From: Synechococcus sp. SynAce01
GTDB taxonomy: Bacteria; Cyanobacteriota; Cyanobacteriia; PCC-6307; Cyanobiaceae
Direction of reading: 5' to 3'
DNA: 64,000 nucleotides
NCBI RefSeq assembly: GCF_001885215.1
Contig: NZ_CP018091.1
Coordinates: 1,302,001-1,366,000 of the forward strand
Positions within the stretch are counted from its first letter, which is position 1; every line of letters starts with the position of its first letter. The notes beneath the pieces are model-generated. The model was not told the DNA's origin and did not search any database. It worked only from the letters and a program-made list of their open reading frames with translations. A program made the position numbers and the translations under genes. Of this stretch, positions 3,683 to 62,150 are shown piece by piece.

Positions 3683-5383
3683 TCAGGCCGCGCCCCGGCC
3701 CAGCAGGCTGGCGGCGTAGCTGTGGGCCTCACCGGAATCACCACCGGCCAACTCGGCCAGTTCCCGCTGCCGCGCCTGGGTGTCCCGCAGGTGGGACACC
3801 CGCGTCAGCGTGCGGCCGTCCTCCACCTGCTTGCTCACCTGGAAGTGGTGGTCGGCGGCGGCCGCAACCAGGGGCTGGTGGGTGACGCAGAACACCTGGC
3901 GTTGCTGGGCCAGGCGCCGCAACAGCGCCGCGATCGCGCCGCTCACCCGGCCGCTGACGCCGGCGTCGATTTCATCGAAGAGCAGGGTGACGTGGGGATC
4001 GGCCGCCGCCAGGCAGGTGGTGAGCGCCAGCAGGAAGCGGCTCATCTCGCCACCGGAGGCCACCTCCTGCAGCGGGGCCAGGGGCTGGCCGGGGTTGGCC
4101 GAGAACAGGAACTGGACCAGATCGGCGCCGTCATCTTTTGGTGCGACGGCCTCCAGCGCCACGCTGAAGCGCACATTGGCGAGGCCAAGCGGTCTGAGTG
4201 AATGAGTCAGTTGCTCCTCCAGGAGACGGGCCGCCTCGCTGCGCCTGGTGCTGAGCAGGGCGCAGGCCCGATCCCGCGCGCTGCGGGCAGCGGCCTCAGC
4301 GGTCTCCAGGCTTGCGAGCGTCTGGGCTTCGCCGCCGGGGGCCAGCAGCAACCGCAGCTGGTCACGCCGGGCAATCAGGCCGGCGAGATCCTGGCCATGG
4401 CGGCGCTCCAGGCCCTTGAGCTGGGCGATCCGCTCCTGCAGACCGGCCAGGCCGGCCGGATCGCTCTCCAGGGCGGCGCCGTAGCGCTCCAGGCCGCGGG
4501 CCAGATCCTGCAACTGCTGCAGGGCCTCGCCGCAGCGCTGCTGTAGCGGCTCCAAGCTGCCGTCGAGGGCGGTGATCAGTTGCAGTTCCTGCTCGCAGGC
4601 GCCGAGATGGTCGAGAACCGACGGGGCCTGCTCGGCCCCTTCCACCAACCGGCCCAGCAGTAGAATCACCCCCTCCTGCAGCCGCACGCCGTGGGAGAGA
4701 CGGTCCTGCTCAACTTCAAGCGCCTGCCGCTCGCCTGGATCGTCGAGATGGGCCGCGTCGAGATCCTCGAGCTGCTGCTGCTGAAGCTGGCGGCCTTGCT
4801 CCAGTTGCTCGCGATCGGCTCGGGCGGCCTCAAGAGCAGCCGCCGCCTGCTTCCAGCTCTGGTGGGCGGCGCGGACCGGGCCGAGGGCCGCCGCCAGGGG
4901 CTCACCGCCAAAGCGATCCAGCCAGCGGCGCTGCTGGCCGGGGCGGGCGAGTTGGCGGGTCTGGCCCTGAACGGTGAGCTCCAGCAGCAGGGGCCGCAGC
5001 TCCAGCAGCTGGCTGCGGTTGACGGCCACGCCGTTGAGGCGGCTGCGGCTCTGGATGCGCTCGCCGCTCTGCCGCCACTCACGGCTGAGCAGCAGCTCCG
5101 GCTCGTCGCCATCCAGGTTGCCATCGAGCTGCTGGGCCTGGAGCCAGGCCTGCAGCGGCGGCGAAGAGGCAAAACTGGCCTCAATCAGGCCACGGTCACA
5201 GCCCTGGCGCAGCAAGCGGCTGCCCTGGTTGGCCGGGCCGCCGCCAAGCAGGGCATCCAAGGCATCGAGCAGCAGCGACTTGCCGGCACCGGTTTCGCCG
5301 GTGAGCACCGTAAAGCCCCGGTCGAAGCTGAGCTCCAGGCCGTCAATCAGAGCGATGTTCTCAAGGCGCAGACCCGTGAGCAC
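3683..5383 (-). CDS. recN: DNA repair protein RecN
   Basis: RecN is an SMC-like ATPase acting in double-strand break repair. The 566-aa protein opens with the typical LxLENIALID segment followed by a Walker A motif GETGAGKS at residues 29-36, has a long Gln/Leu/Arg-rich coiled-coil middle (about residues 150-380), then the ABC signature ASGGEMSRF and a Walker B LLFDEIDAGVSG close to the C-terminus. Length matches the family (about 550 aa). It is on the same strand as uvrA with a 50-base gap and is divergent from the ABC1 kinase gene that begins at 5463, leaving about 80 bases for two promoters. Confidence 0.96.
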   Translation of the reverse strand: MLTGLRLENIALIDGLELSFDRGFTVLTGETGAGKSLLLDALDALLGGGPANQGSRLLRQGCDRGLIEASFASSPPLQAWLQAQQLDGNLDGDEPELLLSREWRQSGERIQSRSRLNGVAVNRSQLLELRPLLLELTVQGQTRQLARPGQQRRWLDRFGGEPLAAALGPVRAAHQSWKQAAAALEAARADREQLEQGRQLQQQQLEDLDAAHLDDPGERQALEVEQDRLSHGVRLQEGVILLLGRLVEGAEQAPSVLDHLGACEQELQLITALDGSLEPLQQRCGEALQQLQDLARGLERYGAALESDPAGLAGLQERIAQLKGLERRHGQDLAGLIARRDQLRLLLAPGGEAQTLASLETAEAAARSARDRACALLSTRRSEAARLLEEQLTHSLRPLGLANVRFSVALEAVAPKDDGADLVQFLFSANPGQPLAPLQEVASGGEMSRFLLALTTCLAAADPHVTLLFDEIDAGVSGRVSGAIAALLRRLAQQRQVFCVTHQPLVAAAADHHFQVSKQVEDGRTLTRVSHLRDTQARQRELAELAGGDSGEAHSYAASLLGRGAA

Positions 5384-56728: not shown

Positions 56729-57000
56729 CAAAGCGGCTCTCGACGATTGGGCCGGCCCTTCAGGGCCTTGTTGACCATTCCCCAGGCGACGCACCTCTCA
56801 TTGGCGTCAGCCGGCTGTTTGCGGTTCCACCTCTGCTGGGGCCCGGCTGCAGGCGCCGCTGTTGCTGGATCTACCGGTGCTGAATTCGCTGGCACCTTGA
56901 GCTTTGGCTCCATTGGGTTTGCCGCTGCGTGATTAGCGCCGTCACGCCATTTTTCCCACGTTGTTCGGGTGTGCCTGTTGGGCGTGCCGTTTGTATCGCC

Positions 57001-58566
57001 ATGACTTCCGCTTCCCCTCCGGCTTCAGAACATCTGCCAGCGACGCTGACCAAGGTGGAGCAGGCCAAGGCTGACCTCTGCGGCCTCGACCTCCTGCCCC
57101 GCTTGCCCCAGCTGGCCCGCAATGGCTGGGAGGCCCTCGATGAGGCCACCCTCACCATTCGCCTCAAGTGGTTGGGGATCTTTTTTCGGCCGGTCACACC
57201 CGGCCGCTTCATGCTGCGCTTGCGGCTTCCCAACGGGGTGATCACCGCCGAGCAGCTGGAACTGCTGGGTGAAGCGATCGATCGTTGCGGTGAGCACGGC
57301 AGCGCTGACATCACCACCCGCCAGAACCTGCAGCTGCGGGGGCTGCTGTTTGAAGACATGCCGCCGTTGTTGGACGCCATGGAGCGGCTCGGCCTCACCA
57401 GCCGCCAATCCGGCCATGACAACCCCCGCAACATCACCGGCAACCCTCTGGCCGGGATCGACCCCGAGGAGATCGTCGACACCCGCCCGCTGGTGCAGGC
57501 CATCCAGGATCGCCTGTTCTGCGCCGATGGCCCGCGCAACCTGCCCCGCAAGTTCAACGTGGCCGTCGGCGGTGCTCCCGACAGCTTCCTGCTCCACAAC
57601 GACCTGGCCTTCCTGCCGGCCCATCACGACGGCCGGCTCGGCTTCACCGTGATGGTGGGGGGCTTCTTCTCCGCCCAGCGCAATGAACTGGCCATCCCCC
57701 TCGGGCTCTGGCTGGAGGCCGACCAGCTGCCCGATTTCGCCCTGGCGGTGCTGCGCCATTTCGAGCAGTGCGGCAACCGCAAGCTGCGCAACAAGAGCCG
57801 GCTGATGTATCTGATCGACGAGTTCGGCCTGGAGGCCTATCGGGCGGCGGTTCTGGAGGTGTATGGCGAGCAGGCCGGTGCCCCGGCTGAGGCCCGGATC
57901 CAGCCCCACGACGGCCGCCACCTGGTGGATCGGGCCCCCCGCGATGGCCTGGGCTGGAATCCACAGGCGCAGGAGGGGCTCGGCTGGCTCGGGCTCCACG
58001 TGCCGATGGGCCGACTGGATGGGGAGTCGATGCTGGCCCTGGCCGGCCTGGCCCGCCGCTATGGCAGCGGCGAGCTCAGGCTCACCGAGGCCCAGAACGC
58101 CCTTCTGCCCGATGTTCCGCTGGCTCGCCGCCAGGCGCTGGAGGCGGAGCCGCTCCTGCAGCGCTTCCGCCCCGACCCCGGCGCCCTGCAGGCCGAAGCC
58201 GTGAGCTGCACCGGCAGCGCCTACTGCAGCTTTGCCCTGATCCCAACCAAAGGCACCGCCCAGGCGCTGGTGGAGGAGCTGGAGCGACGGGTTGACCTGC
58301 CTGAATCGGTGCGTACCCACTGGACCGGCTGCCCCAACGCCTGTGGCCAGCCCTACATGGGTCAGATCGGCCTGATGGGCGCCAAGGCCCGCAAAGACGG
58401 CGAGATGGTGGAGGCGGTGAAGATCTTCCTTGGCGGTGCCATGGGCGCCGAACCCCGGTTGGCCGAGCTGCACCACAAAGGGGTGCCCCTGAGCGAACTC
58501 CCCGATGTGATGGAGGAGCTGCTGGTGGAGCACTTCGGTGCCCGGCGGAAGCTGGCCGGCGGCTGA
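57001..58566 (+). CDS. nirA: Ferredoxin-nitrite reductase
   Basis: Reduces nitrite to ammonium with six electrons from ferredoxin. With ATG 57001 the protein has 521 aa, normal for NirA; a GTG at 56929 in frame would add an unsupported 24 residues. Seen are ITTRQNLQLRGL, NPRNITGNPLAGIDPEEI, KFNVAVGG, and the siroheme/4Fe-4S cysteines: Cys in VSCTGSAYCSFALIPTKG (C-x5-C) and in HWTGCPNACGQPYMGQIGLMG (C-x3-C). It is followed by a gene with a sirohydrochlorin-chelatase-like domain, which would supply siroheme. Confidence 0.96.
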   Translation: MTSASPPASEHLPATLTKVEQAKADLCGLDLLPRLPQLARNGWEALDEATLTIRLKWLGIFFRPVTPGRFMLRLRLPNGVITAEQLELLGEAIDRCGEHGSADITTRQNLQLRGLLFEDMPPLLDAMERLGLTSRQSGHDNPRNITGNPLAGIDPEEIVDTRPLVQAIQDRLFCADGPRNLPRKFNVAVGGAPDSFLLHNDLAFLPAHHDGRLGFTVMVGGFFSAQRNELAIPLGLWLEADQLPDFALAVLRHFEQCGNRKLRNKSRLMYLIDEFGLEAYRAAVLEVYGEQAGAPAEARIQPHDGRHLVDRAPRDGLGWNPQAQEGLGWLGLHVPMGRLDGESMLALAGLARRYGSGELRLTEAQNALLPDVPLARRQALEAEPLLQRFRPDPGALQAEAVSCTGSAYCSFALIPTKGTAQALVEELERRVDLPESVRTHWTGCPNACGQPYMGQIGLMGAKARKDGEMVEAVKIFLGGAMGAEPRLAELHHKGVPLSELPDVMEELLVEHFGARRKLAGG

Positions 58567-58620: not shown

Positions 58621-59952
58621 GTGGCCTGCACGCCTGAGACAAGCCTGTTGCCGGCCGCCTTGCCGGGCCCGGAGTCTGCGCAGCGCTGGCCCTGGCTGCA
58701 GCGGCTGCGGCGCAGCAGCGATGTGCCCCTGGAGGCCTGGTTGCAGGCGATCGAAACCGGAGCCCTGTCGCTCGATGCCGACCTGATCGCCGCCCTGGCC
58801 CCGCGCCTCGACGCCGCGGCGGCGCTGCGGCTGCTGGACGGCTGGTTGAGGGGCGGCTCCAGGGATCCCGCCGTGCTGCAGGTGATCGGTCAGCACCGCG
58901 GTCCCGCCCTGGCGGCCCGCTTGCGCCAGGCTTTGGCCGCCGATGGGGTCGGGCGGGCGCCCTGGCTGCTGCCCCTGCTCGGTCATCAGCGCGATCCGGC
59001 CGACTTTGCGTTGTTATCGAGCTGGCTGCTGGGTCCGCAGCCGTTGCGCTGCCGTCAGGCGGCCCTTGAGGGGCTGGCTGTCGGACTCTCCAGCTGGCCC
59101 CTGCCTGCGCTGCGCGCCCTGTTGCGCCAGCTGGTTACGGGTCTGCAGCCTTCCCTGGCCGCCCCTGCGCTGGATCTGCTGGCCCGCTTGCCCCAGCCCA
59201 GGCGGGCGCTCGCGGGCCTGGCGCCCGCAGCCCTGGAGCCTTCGGTGCAACGGCGCCGGCAACGCCGGCTTGCGGCCTTGCCGGCCAATCCCCTTGTCCT
59301 GGTGGTGCACGGCCGCAGTGGTGGGCTGATCCCGCCCGAGCTGGAGGTCCTGCGCGCCGAGTTACAAAGCCTGCGTCGCTCGCCGGTGCTGCTCCAGGCT
59401 CTGACGGCAGCGGCCTTGCCCGTTCCCGAACCGCTCCGCCAGGCCGCTGAGGGCCAGCCCCTGAGCCTGATGCCACTGCTGCTGCTGCCTGGCAGTCACG
59501 TCTGCGGCGATGTGCCGGCGCTGGCCGCCCGCTGGCGTAGCAGCGGCCCAGTGATCCGCTTGCCCTTCCTGGGGGCCTGGCCCCTCTGGCAGCAGGCCCT
59601 GCGCCAGGAAGTGTGCGCCCTGGTGGCGGCCAGCGAGCCATCCGCTGGCGACGACGGGCCGCTGCTGCCACTGCTGCTGCATCACCCGCTTCGGAGCTCC
59701 CTGGCCGGGCGCTATCTGGCCCACCTCGGCCCGTTCTGCGGCGCCACCTGCCTGCCCACGCCCTACAGCGCGCCGGATTCCGATGCAGGGCGCTCGCTGC
59801 TTGAAGACCCTTCAGACCGCCCCGTTGTGCTGCCGTTGGTGCTGGCCAGCAATCGCCTCACTGAGGCCTTGCCCGATTGGTGTGCTGAGCCCCTGCTGCA
59901 GCGCCCCGCACTGCGCGCGTGCCTGCTGGATTTGCTCCTCTGCCTGCCTTAA
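58621..59952 (+). CDS. HEAT-like repeat protein with C-terminal CbiX-like chelatase domain
   Basis: A 443-aa protein starting at GTG 58621. Residues about 20-215 are Leu/Ala-rich paired helices like HEAT repeats. From residue 223 on it resembles CbiX/SirB sirohydrochlorin chelatases: NPLVLVVHGRSGGLIPPE with the first His (H230), a hydrophobic LSLMPLLLLPGSHVCGDVPALAARW with His293 and Asp297, corresponding to the H-x-x-x-D metal site, and a second similar half with LPLLLHHPL. Insertion of iron into sirohydrochlorin gives siroheme, the cofactor of NirA encoded 54 bases upstream. The assignment is by motif and context; activity is unproven. Confidence 0.65.
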   Translation: MACTPETSLLPAALPGPESAQRWPWLQRLRRSSDVPLEAWLQAIETGALSLDADLIAALAPRLDAAAALRLLDGWLRGGSRDPAVLQVIGQHRGPALAARLRQALAADGVGRAPWLLPLLGHQRDPADFALLSSWLLGPQPLRCRQAALEGLAVGLSSWPLPALRALLRQLVTGLQPSLAAPALDLLARLPQPRRALAGLAPAALEPSVQRRRQRRLAALPANPLVLVVHGRSGGLIPPELEVLRAELQSLRRSPVLLQALTAAALPVPEPLRQAAEGQPLSLMPLLLLPGSHVCGDVPALAARWRSSGPVIRLPFLGAWPLWQQALRQEVCALVAASEPSAGDDGPLLPLLLHHPLRSSLAGRYLAHLGPFCGATCLPTPYSAPDSDAGRSLLEDPSDRPVVLPLVLASNRLTEALPDWCAEPLLQRPALRACLLDLLLCLP

Positions 59953-60016
59953 GCGCTCCCGCTGCGTGAGCAGATGACCACATGGGGCGGCTACCGAGCC
60001 GGGATCGGGGTGGTTG

Positions 60017-60058
60017 GTAACACGAGCTACAGGCAGGAAGACTCGCCCCTGTTCTAAT
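60017..60058 (+). promoter_or_regulatory. NtcA-activated promoter (class II) upstream of focA
   Basis: GTAACACGAGCTAC (60017-60030) fits the NtcA palindrome GTA-N8-TAC perfectly. Exactly 22 bases later comes TCTAAT (60053-60058), one mismatch from TATAAT. This is the classical layout of nitrogen-controlled cyanobacterial promoters. The next long gene is focA, 550 bases downstream. Confidence 0.8.
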
Positions 60059-60359
60059 AATTGAGTGAATGAGTCAGCCTTGGCTGCTTCATTTTCTTTT
60101 TGGGTCAATATCTGCGGGTGCAACTTTGTTATGGGGCCAATCGGCTCCTGACGCCCGCACATTGACTTCCACGCGTGAAACGCTTGGGCTCTGTGTCCTT
60201 CTAGGCATTGACCCGCAAGCTTTTGTTGCGTCGTTGCTTTGGCCAGCACGATTCAGCCGTTTGAATGATTTGCGTTGCTTGGCATCTTGGGTCCGCTCAG
60301 GTCCCTGCTGCCGCTGTATCTCAGCGAATCTCGTCCAACTATTTTTGCATTGAGTTTTT

Positions 60360-60509
60360 ATGGCTTCCATCCCTTCCAAGCAAGCTTCTGACCCGATGTC
60401 GCGGCTCCTCAATTGGTTCAGCGCCCTGGGCGCAGATACCCCTGAAACGCAGCCTTCACGGAAACGGCTTGATCCATTCAGCAGGTTGATGAATCGAATT
60501 AGCGGCTGA
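60360..60509 (+). CDS. Possible small protein, 49 aa
   Basis: ATG 60360 to TGA 60507-60509. The peptide has two short amphipathic parts, SRLLNWFSALGA and DPFSRLMNRISG, separated by a Pro/Thr/Arg stretch. A stop codon lies 3 codons before the ATG, so the start is fixed. No clear ribosome-binding site. It lies on the RNA from the NtcA-type promoter, 101 bases before focA. I do not recognise it; whether it is translated is unknown. Confidence 0.35.
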   Translation: MASIPSKQASDPMSRLLNWFSALGADTPETQPSRKRLDPFSRLMNRISG

Positions 60510-60610
60510 TGTCTTCTCTTTTTGCGAACGTCAGGCTCGAATCCCAGGCCTGATTCAAAATCTGATACGCGCTTCTGTCCCACACCCTTTTCCAGGCTTA
60601 CCTTCCTCCA

Positions 60611-61492
60611 ATGGATTACGTCTTACCGAATGAACTCGTCGACGGCATGATTGCCGCCGGCGGCAAGAAATCCAGCGTCAGTATTAAGAATCTGTTGTTG
60701 CGCGGGTTTTATTCCGGATCCGCCCTCGGCCTGGCGTTGTGCCTGGCCCTCACGATCATGGTTCAGACGGGCATTCCCTGGATCGGCTCGTTCATCTTCC
60801 CGTTCGGATTCGCCAGCATCGTGCTGTTCGGTATGGAGTTGGTGACTGGAAACTTTGCCCTGCTGCCGATGGCGGTCTGGGCAGGCCGGACCACCTGGAG
60901 CAAAACCTTCCGCAACTGGATCTGGGTGTGGATCGGTAATTTCCTTGGCACCGGCCTGGTCGGCATTCTCTTTGCCATCAGCCTCACCAGTGGTGGCACC
61001 GCAGACCTGGCCACAGGCTCCGGTGACTGGGTGGAGGTCGCCAACAAAATCATCGGCCTGAACAAGGCCAATGTGATTACCAAGTATCAAGATCTGGGCC
61101 TTCTTGGCTTTTTTCTTGCCTTTCTTCGTGGCGTGATTGCCAACTGGTTGGTTTGTCTTGGGGTCACCCTGGCGCTGGTGAGCAAGAGCGTTCCAGGCAA
61201 GATCATGGCCTGCTGGCTACCGATCACCGCCTTCCAAGCCCTGGGTATGGAGCACATTGTGGTGAATATGTTCCTGCACACCACCGGCCCTTTGCTGGGT
61301 TCTGGCGTGGGCTTCGCCCAGATCGTCTTCTGGAATTATCTTCCCGTCACTCTGGGCAACATTGTGGGCGGCATGGTGTTCATCGGCATGCTCTTCTACA
61401 GCACGCACCGTTCACCCATCAGCAATGTGTTGCCGCTGAAGCATGATGAACGGCTGGAGCGTGAATTGGCTGCCGAGCTTGGTGCTCGCTGA
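60611..61492 (+). CDS. focA: Formate/nitrite transporter family protein
   Basis: A 293-aa FNT channel with six membrane segments. The family features are LPNELVDGMIAAG at the start, FGFASIVLFGMELVTGNFALLP (the Omega-loop region with the conserved G-x-E-L-x-T-G-N), LRGVIANWLVCLGVTLAL, GMEHIVVNMF, and NYLPVTLGNIVGGMVFIG. Together with nirA, cynS and ureC, nitrite uptake is the most likely role. A strong terminator follows. Confidence 0.93.
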   Translation: MDYVLPNELVDGMIAAGGKKSSVSIKNLLLRGFYSGSALGLALCLALTIMVQTGIPWIGSFIFPFGFASIVLFGMELVTGNFALLPMAVWAGRTTWSKTFRNWIWVWIGNFLGTGLVGILFAISLTSGGTADLATGSGDWVEVANKIIGLNKANVITKYQDLGLLGFFLAFLRGVIANWLVCLGVTLALVSKSVPGKIMACWLPITAFQALGMEHIVVNMFLHTTGPLLGSGVGFAQIVFWNYLPVTLGNIVGGMVFIGMLFYSTHRSPISNVLPLKHDERLERELAAELGAR

Positions 61493-62067: not shown

Positions 62068-62150
62068 AAAATGAGTAGAGCGGCGTACAGAAGGGATGGA
62101 AACAAGCAGGTTTTTATGCTGCTGAGCAACCGCCATTATGCGGCCTTTCA

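Follow-up and report, generated by a model that had tools for sequence, protein, structure and literature searches.

The window analysed here is a 64,000-nucleotide stretch of a picocyanobacterial chromosome, that of Synechococcus sp. SynAce01 (G000:C1 1302001-1366000). Towards its end it carries, in order, nirA, a gene for a 443-residue CbiX-like protein, an NtcA box, a 49-codon frame, focA, and frames on the opposite strand that we read as cynS and ureC (Table 1). The CbiX-like gene is a candidate nirX. An earlier note on this DNA had described a long NtcA-driven leader before focA, containing the 49-codon frame, and proposed, by analogy with known small nitrogen-controlled inhibitors, that an undescribed small protein or a regulatory RNA might be specified here; the observation is confirmed and the interpretation partly supported.

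Table 1. Features of the nirA-focA region of the window (positions are those of the window).
Feature	Coordinates	Strand	Basis or remark
nirA, ferredoxin-nitrite reductase	56929..58566	+	C-terminus without motif-bearing tail in the window
443-aa protein with CbiX-like domain, between nirA and promoter	58621..59952	+	
NtcA box GTAACACGAGCTAC	60017..60030	+	strict GTAN8TAC match
-10-like hexamer TCTAAT	60053..60058	+	read from sequence, 22 bases past the NtcA box
5' leader of the sORF-focA unit, about 295 bases	60065..60359	+	inferred start; without Rfam family
Small-protein gene, 49 aa, two amphipathic helical motifs	60360..60509	+	
Predicted helix 1, residues 12-25	60393..60434	+	AlphaFold2, block pLDDT 79 and 61
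Predicted helix 2, residues 39-47	60474..60500	+	AlphaFold2
focA / nitM, formate/nitrite channel, 293 aa	60611..61492	+	Pfam Form_Nir_trans 7.4e-60
Conserved FocA C-terminal segment VLPLKHDERLERELAAELGAR	61427..61489	+	alignment

The NtcA-type promoter had been called perfect. This holds for the NtcA box, whereas the hexamer that follows departs from the textbook TAN3T. A TTAAT-type hexamer also occurs upstream of the frame in four aligned relatives (G001, G123, G144 and G097); in the same alignment the box is identical in G001 and G123, differs by two bases in G144 and is imperfect in G097. The window contains two strict GTAN8TAC sites against a chance mean of 0.34 and, since 7 of 100 shuffles also reach two, the box by itself is suggestive rather than proof. 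The second site, a palindrome at 62075-62088, lies about 8 bases upstream of the minus-strand cynS start as read, which is too close for a usual activator site. Further along, the plus strand at 63499-63789 matches the Rfam family 5_ureB_sRNA (121.8 bits) antisense to ureC, a match that probably stems from conservation of the ureC coding sequence and not from an RNA gene. Transcription of the unit would begin near 60065, about 545 bases 5' of the focA ATG, and the window copy of the small gene would come under NtcA control. The long leader of focA stands in that the inferred start is indeed so distant, but the small gene opens the unit after a leader of about 295 bases.

A conserved small-protein gene ahead of focA

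The 49-codon frame is a genuine conserved picocyanobacterial small-protein gene, separated from focA in the window by a spacer of 101 bases. A first search for relatives covered 60 genomes, our own included, and found 22 with E below 0.002; the frame lies directly before focA in 20 of these, and a later positional listing placed it likewise in the other two, G005 and G036. A profile built from a 16-row alignment (A1) was then used on 400 family genomes, of which 166 matched at E<=0.1 and 134 at E<=1e-3. The synonymous-biased change for which the earlier note had proposed to search is found throughout: dN is below dS in all 99 usable pairs, with a median ratio of 0.15 (of 137 pairs, 33 were saturated and 5 fell outside the dS limits), and the window gene compared with that of G001 (as L063) gives a dN of 0.076 and a dS of 0.395. 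This bias, the 84% identity of the window and G001 proteins and the occurrence of relatives across the family show that the frame is more than a product of chance.

Beyond the family, a draw of 339 genomes from the phylum gave 21 matches at E<=0.001, of which 20 are in the family and one is a doubtful outsider (G642, E 6.6e-5, inside a 352-residue frame), so that no good match outside the family was found in this draw. No Pfam or NCBIfam family matched the small protein above cut-off (best Pfam TPR_20, E 0.25; NCBIfam none). Weak matches in g18 (E about 0.013-0.02) were not counted, as in the g18 genomes inspected they fall within frames of 979-981 residues, and a competing 94-codon frame at 60069-60353 was rejected as unsupported, being interrupted by indels between G000 and G001. 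Copies away from focA occur at G122:C90, G124:C9 and G145:C21. The first of these (3704-3829, L164) may be contamination or a binning error; the same metagenome bin also has a copy at focA.

The small protein consists of two copies of one motif, roughly FS[RK]hhN[WR]hS, which in the window read DPMSRLLNWFS and DPFSRLMNRIS with a polar linker between them. Lengths range from 44 to 62 residues (44-49 in 47 of 49 rows). In the 16-row alignment seven columns are invariant; over 46 rows there are eight, including a single invariant Trp. Helix 2 holds six of these eight, and Cys is absent in 49 of 49 rows. The AlphaFold2 model is of modest confidence (mean pLDDT 66). Maximal helical moments have a mean of 0.78, compared with 0.58 after shuffling of the sequences. 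These data bear out the two amphipathic helices that had been read from the frame.

The gene is not quite undescribed, as had been supposed. Its ortholog in WH7803, SynWH7803_RSS12335, was published in 2022 as an expressed 44-residue ORF of unknown function between nirA and nitM (PMC9430850). It is described there as co-transcribed with nirA and nitM and strongly nitrogen-induced, with RNA-seq changes of +193.9 and +238.8-fold, and as possibly descended from existing nitrogen genes (PMC9430850). Our profile found the WH7803 locus (L106), whose product aligns with the window protein.

The authors of the WH7803 study suggest RNA processing (PMC9430850), which raises the alternative that a conserved leader RNA or processing element is what matters here, the frame being secondary. 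Leaders of roughly 290-400 bases, measured from inferred starts, in five genomes (G000, G001, G123, G144 and G097) would agree with this, as would the stretch from the nirA stop to the small gene at other loci (L064-L109, e.g. L075 around 3940-3986), which folds better than shuffles at z<-2 in 32 of 40 loci. This stretch usually contains one hairpin, in some Synechococcus of the form CCGTGAC-loop-GTCACGG with the stem changed in CC9311, and may govern the proportion between the RNAs of nirA and of the genes downstream. Against an RNA as the main actor stand the constraint on the coding sequence in every usable pair and the fusion of the protein to NirA, described below. Moreover, searches of Rfam at gathering thresholds over the whole window, and of the leader at relaxed ones, returned nothing credible, and the folding of the window leader is not significant (z -1.7; of the five leaders only that of G144 falls below -2). 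We regard this alternative as very improbable; of the two products that the earlier note had entertained, the small protein stands as a conserved gene, whereas the regulatory RNA is without Rfam support. The sole weak Rfam match, asR3 at 59955-60000 (E 0.23), falls under its own cut-off and was discarded. A leader hairpin, TGCGGGTG ... CGCCCGCA, is predicted at 60100-60175 in both G000 and G001, and between these two sequences, the only ones compared, one G-C pair changes to G-U.

Linkage to focA and fusion to NirA

Across the 400 family genomes we detected focA in 154, nirA in 273 and the small-protein domain in 134 (E<=1e-3). All but one of the domain-bearing genomes have focA (133 of 134), though not all of these have the free gene intact: in G074 and G341 the domain exists only as a NirA fusion, while G299 has only a remnant and G313 a frame-broken copy. 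The domain occurs in 132 of the 152 genomes with both nirA and focA, and in 0 of the 121 with nirA and no focA, counts of genomes that ignore shared descent. Within g1, g10, g18, g31 and g79, in each of which both states occur, domain and focA are co-present or co-absent. Among the 150 matches listed in 130 genomes, 127 genomes have a same-strand copy that precedes focA by 31-104 bases.

At 41 of 47 named loci the small gene lies between nirA and focA, with nirA ending 35-118 bases upstream. The window gene is not directly downstream of nirA, the CbiX-like gene and the NtcA-type promoter intervening; it is a homologue of the RSS12335 family in a different arrangement, as the first gene of a sORF-focA unit. 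In the g1 and g31 genomes that have the small gene, window included, nirA is 84-100% identical to that of the window and located apart, whereas nirA genes adjoining focA are about 45-54% identical to it. The domain therefore moves with focA rather than with the window type of nirA. At the focA-less loci L112, L113, L117-L119, L121, L122 and L124-L132 a HEAT-like frame stands directly downstream of nirA; it resembles the gene that follows focA elsewhere and is a candidate for the published nirX.

The domain is also found as part of a larger protein. The matches listed include at least 21 genomes, all from g79, that have the whole domain at the end of a 555-584-residue frame; these frames were taken as NirA by position, and that of G110 was read as NirA. 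A further free copy is present in 17 of these 21 among the matches listed, and in G237, G306 and G382 the only copy among those matches is the fused one, directly before focA. Behind the NirA-domain fusion of G110 (L169:71-2216) stand two free copies that are nearly identical, the product of a recent tandem duplication. Single motifs occur as well: NirA ends in the helix-2 motif in G074 and G341, where no free gene was seen, and in G178, which also has a separate free gene, while the NirA proteins of G006, G032 and G096 have a helix-1-like tail (E 7e-6 to 5e-5; 1e-6 to 5e-5 when G178 is included). More broadly, of the 42 NirA proteins that could be read at the 47 named loci, 11 are tailless, with 513-521 residues, and the other 31 have 524-561 counted from the first ATG, the motif being clear in only some of their tails. 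No motif tail was found in the 18 focA-less genomes in which the NirA C-terminus was read. A model of a tailed NirA (L085, 38 sequences) places a low-confidence tail helix at 523-533 beyond a low-confidence linker, an arrangement such as might be expected of a docking tag, and does not dock the tail confidently on the enzyme. Neighbouring genes readily become fused, a point against reading much into these fusions.

A gene that adjoins nirA, and is fused to NirA in several lineages, could encode a regulator resembling NirP1, a protein that would bind NirA and lower or tune its activity so as to balance uptake and reduction, the fused form acting intramolecularly. According to its description, NirP1 itself is missing from Prochlorococcus and from most marine Synechococcus (PMC10907346), which is compatible with such a role for the small protein there. 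We nonetheless consider this improbable: the domain is missing from all 121 nirA-bearing genomes without focA, its predicted structure differs from that of NirP1, its aligned sequences contain no Cys, and the modelled tail does not dock confidently on the enzyme. An inhibitor, the analogy drawn in the earlier note, is not favoured, and the evidence points instead to coupling or activation of the nitrite channel.

The FocA tail and a proposed activator

The case for activation draws on experiments in S. elongatus, which presumably lies outside the family that carries the small gene. Maeda et al. 2015 expressed marine NitM (=FocA) in a mutant of this species, where the proteins of CC9311 and MIT9313 were inactive and became active once 21 C-terminal residues were removed, while that of CC9605, naturally without the segment, was active; the authors postulate an activator that acts on NitM via the C-terminal domain (PMC4390861). 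A later FocA paper also describes the FocA C-terminus as a possible binding site for a regulator (PMC5572259). By alignment, the conserved C-terminal segment of the window FocA, VLPLKHDERLERELAAELGAR, would be equivalent to the 21 inhibitory residues of Maeda et al.

Two of the genomes in our set correspond to tested strains. The FocA of G238 has 275 residues, 225 of them (82%) identical to G244, with one internal NcoI site and TTC at codon 65 of its gene, and the FocA of G244 has 295 residues with the truncation point at nt 823. As these lengths, the identity, the NcoI site, codon 65 and nt 823 fit, we take G238 to be CC9605 and G244 to be CC9311. The small gene is intact in CC9311. CC9605 and G301, a near relative, have lost the FocA tail, and their small gene has decayed: the nirA-focA DNA still aligns with the small gene of G007, but the start codon is lost and indels and stops are present. 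Among the matches listed, the FocA match ends short of the last residues only in these two genomes and in G005, where the contig ends. Decay of the gene in CC9605 fits a task of relieving the tail, since loss of the tail would make the protein dispensable. The losses in CC9605 and G301 are probably one evolutionary event, and with 19 of the 152 other focA genomes also lacking the gene, the two losses would coincide by chance with a probability of about 0.13.

The tail also occurs without an intact small gene. Among the FocA proteins read at the C-terminus, fourteen retain it although the gene is absent or broken, namely seven from genus g9, in which it has the variant form KDTKLARELAAELGAR, and those of G026, G079, G101, G332, G365, G351 and G329; the FocA matches of two further gene-lacking cases, G313 (broken) and G299 (remnant), reach the last residue. 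The small protein is therefore not the sole way to handle the FocA tail, and in these genomes NirA itself or another factor may serve. When FocA columns were compared between the 14 genomes that lack the gene and 53 loci that have it, three differed, none of them convincingly.

On genomic evidence combined with the published physiology, the reading that we favour, at a probability of about 0.4, is that the small protein couples NirA to FocA/NitM and relieves the C-terminal brake of the channel. The protein, nitrogen-induced and predicted to consist of two short amphipathic helices joined by a flexible linker, would act as an adaptor at the cytoplasmic face of FocA/NitM, binding most simply at or near the C-terminal segment, and would also associate with the nitrite reductase NirA, bridging the two. 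Binding would relieve the autoinhibition exerted by the C-terminal segment, and nitrite would enter only in the presence of both NirA and the small protein. The reality of the gene, selection on its product, its linkage to focA, the NirA fusions and its decay where the FocA tail was lost support such an adaptor; a viral contig with focA and nirA (L178) that shows no copy counts against it.

That small transporter-stabilising proteins are known (PMC10710835), and that the gene sits directly ahead of focA, would also suit a chaperone-like part in the assembly or stability of FocA rather than in its gating. However, the truncated NitM proteins of CC9311 and MIT9313 work in S. elongatus without the small protein (PMC4390861), and hence FocA folding does not need it; we hold such a part to be quite improbable, more so than a tuning of NirA.

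The small gene also occurs in phages. Two IMG/VR contigs of 57.5 and 81 kb (L110 and L111), identical over the 12 kb compared, carry a 48-residue copy about 1.6 kb after psbA (L110:5989-6132). A search for focA found no match in either record, both of which may be fragments. An isolated copy in a phage is in keeping with a protein whose target is host machinery. No match to the small protein was found among INPHARED phages. In L178 (3317-5878) viral focA and nirA flank a small frame that we rejected as a copy of the gene, as by eye it is AbrB-like. A published ETSP viral scaffold likewise has focA and nirA, and the same paper mentions an uncharacterised gene between nirA and focA of MIT9313 (PMC8115048).

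The helices could instead serve as a tether without gating: they would hold NirA at the membrane beside FocA in a nitrite-channelling assembly, either bound to FocA or resting on the membrane, and would leave the C-terminal brake unaffected. Their amphipathic character would suit this, as would the NirA fusions taken together with the linkage to focA. Such a tether leaves unexplained the decay of the gene where the inhibitory tail was lost, albeit in one event, and also the lone phage copy, in records that have no focA match and may be fragments. We judge it rather unlikely.

Relief of the FocA brake by the small protein would speak directly to the 2015 work, which left the marine picocyanobacterial nitrite channel locked by its own C-terminus and its opener unknown. 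The small gene offers a concrete candidate: it neighbours the channel gene, is tied to it across genomes, gave no good match beyond the family among the genomes searched, and has decayed in CC9605, the only strain of those tested to have a channel that opens unaided. In its fullest form, which we put forward more tentatively than the coupling itself, the proposal is that the small protein may be the missing activator of the autoinhibited α-cyanobacterial nitrite channel, linking the channel to NirA either as a free protein or as a tail of the enzyme and so matching nitrite entry to reduction, and that with its lone copy a cyanophage may switch on nitrite uptake by the host. This would matter for the way in which very abundant phototrophs take up nitrite, and for the question of which strains leak it.

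Comparison with known systems

The closest known counterpart is RSS12335, which like the window gene lies upstream of focA/nitM on the same strand and for which PSIPRED predicts two helices (PMC9430850). The two arrangements differ in that the window copy has its own NtcA-type promoter and is not beside nirA. The published study noted a resemblance of RSS12335 to annotated nitrite reductases of CB0101 and NATL2A (PMC9430850), and we infer that these matches are NirA fusions. The titles, abstracts and passages searched give no function for RSS12335 and no link to NitM regulation; in our data it is seen as a separate domain, linked to focA and in some lineages forming part of NirA.

Two further small proteins act in nitrogen assimilation. 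NirP1 of Synechocystis 6803 is likewise small and tied to nitrite metabolism, and is controlled by NtcA, but it has 81 residues (its description gives mostly 76-86), a β-strand model, a conserved central Cys and three Trp (PMC10907346), whereas the small protein has two predicted helices, one invariant Trp and no Cys. PirN, which is also small and acts in nitrate assimilation, is a DUF1830 protein that Prochlorococcus and most marine Synechococcus are said to lack (PMC13205821). In size, the protein compares with SgrT, AcrZ and MgtS, which have about 30-50 residues and alter the activity of transporters (PMC10710835); it is set beside them by description, and matches no Pfam or NCBIfam family above cut-off.

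A parallel in mechanism is that of E. coli FocA with PflB/TdcE, in which transport by an FNT channel depends on contact with an enzyme that handles the substrate (PMC5572259). There the enzyme binds the N-terminal helix of FocA (PMC5572259), whereas in the arrangement proposed here a small domain, separate or fused to the enzyme, would work through the C-terminal segment.
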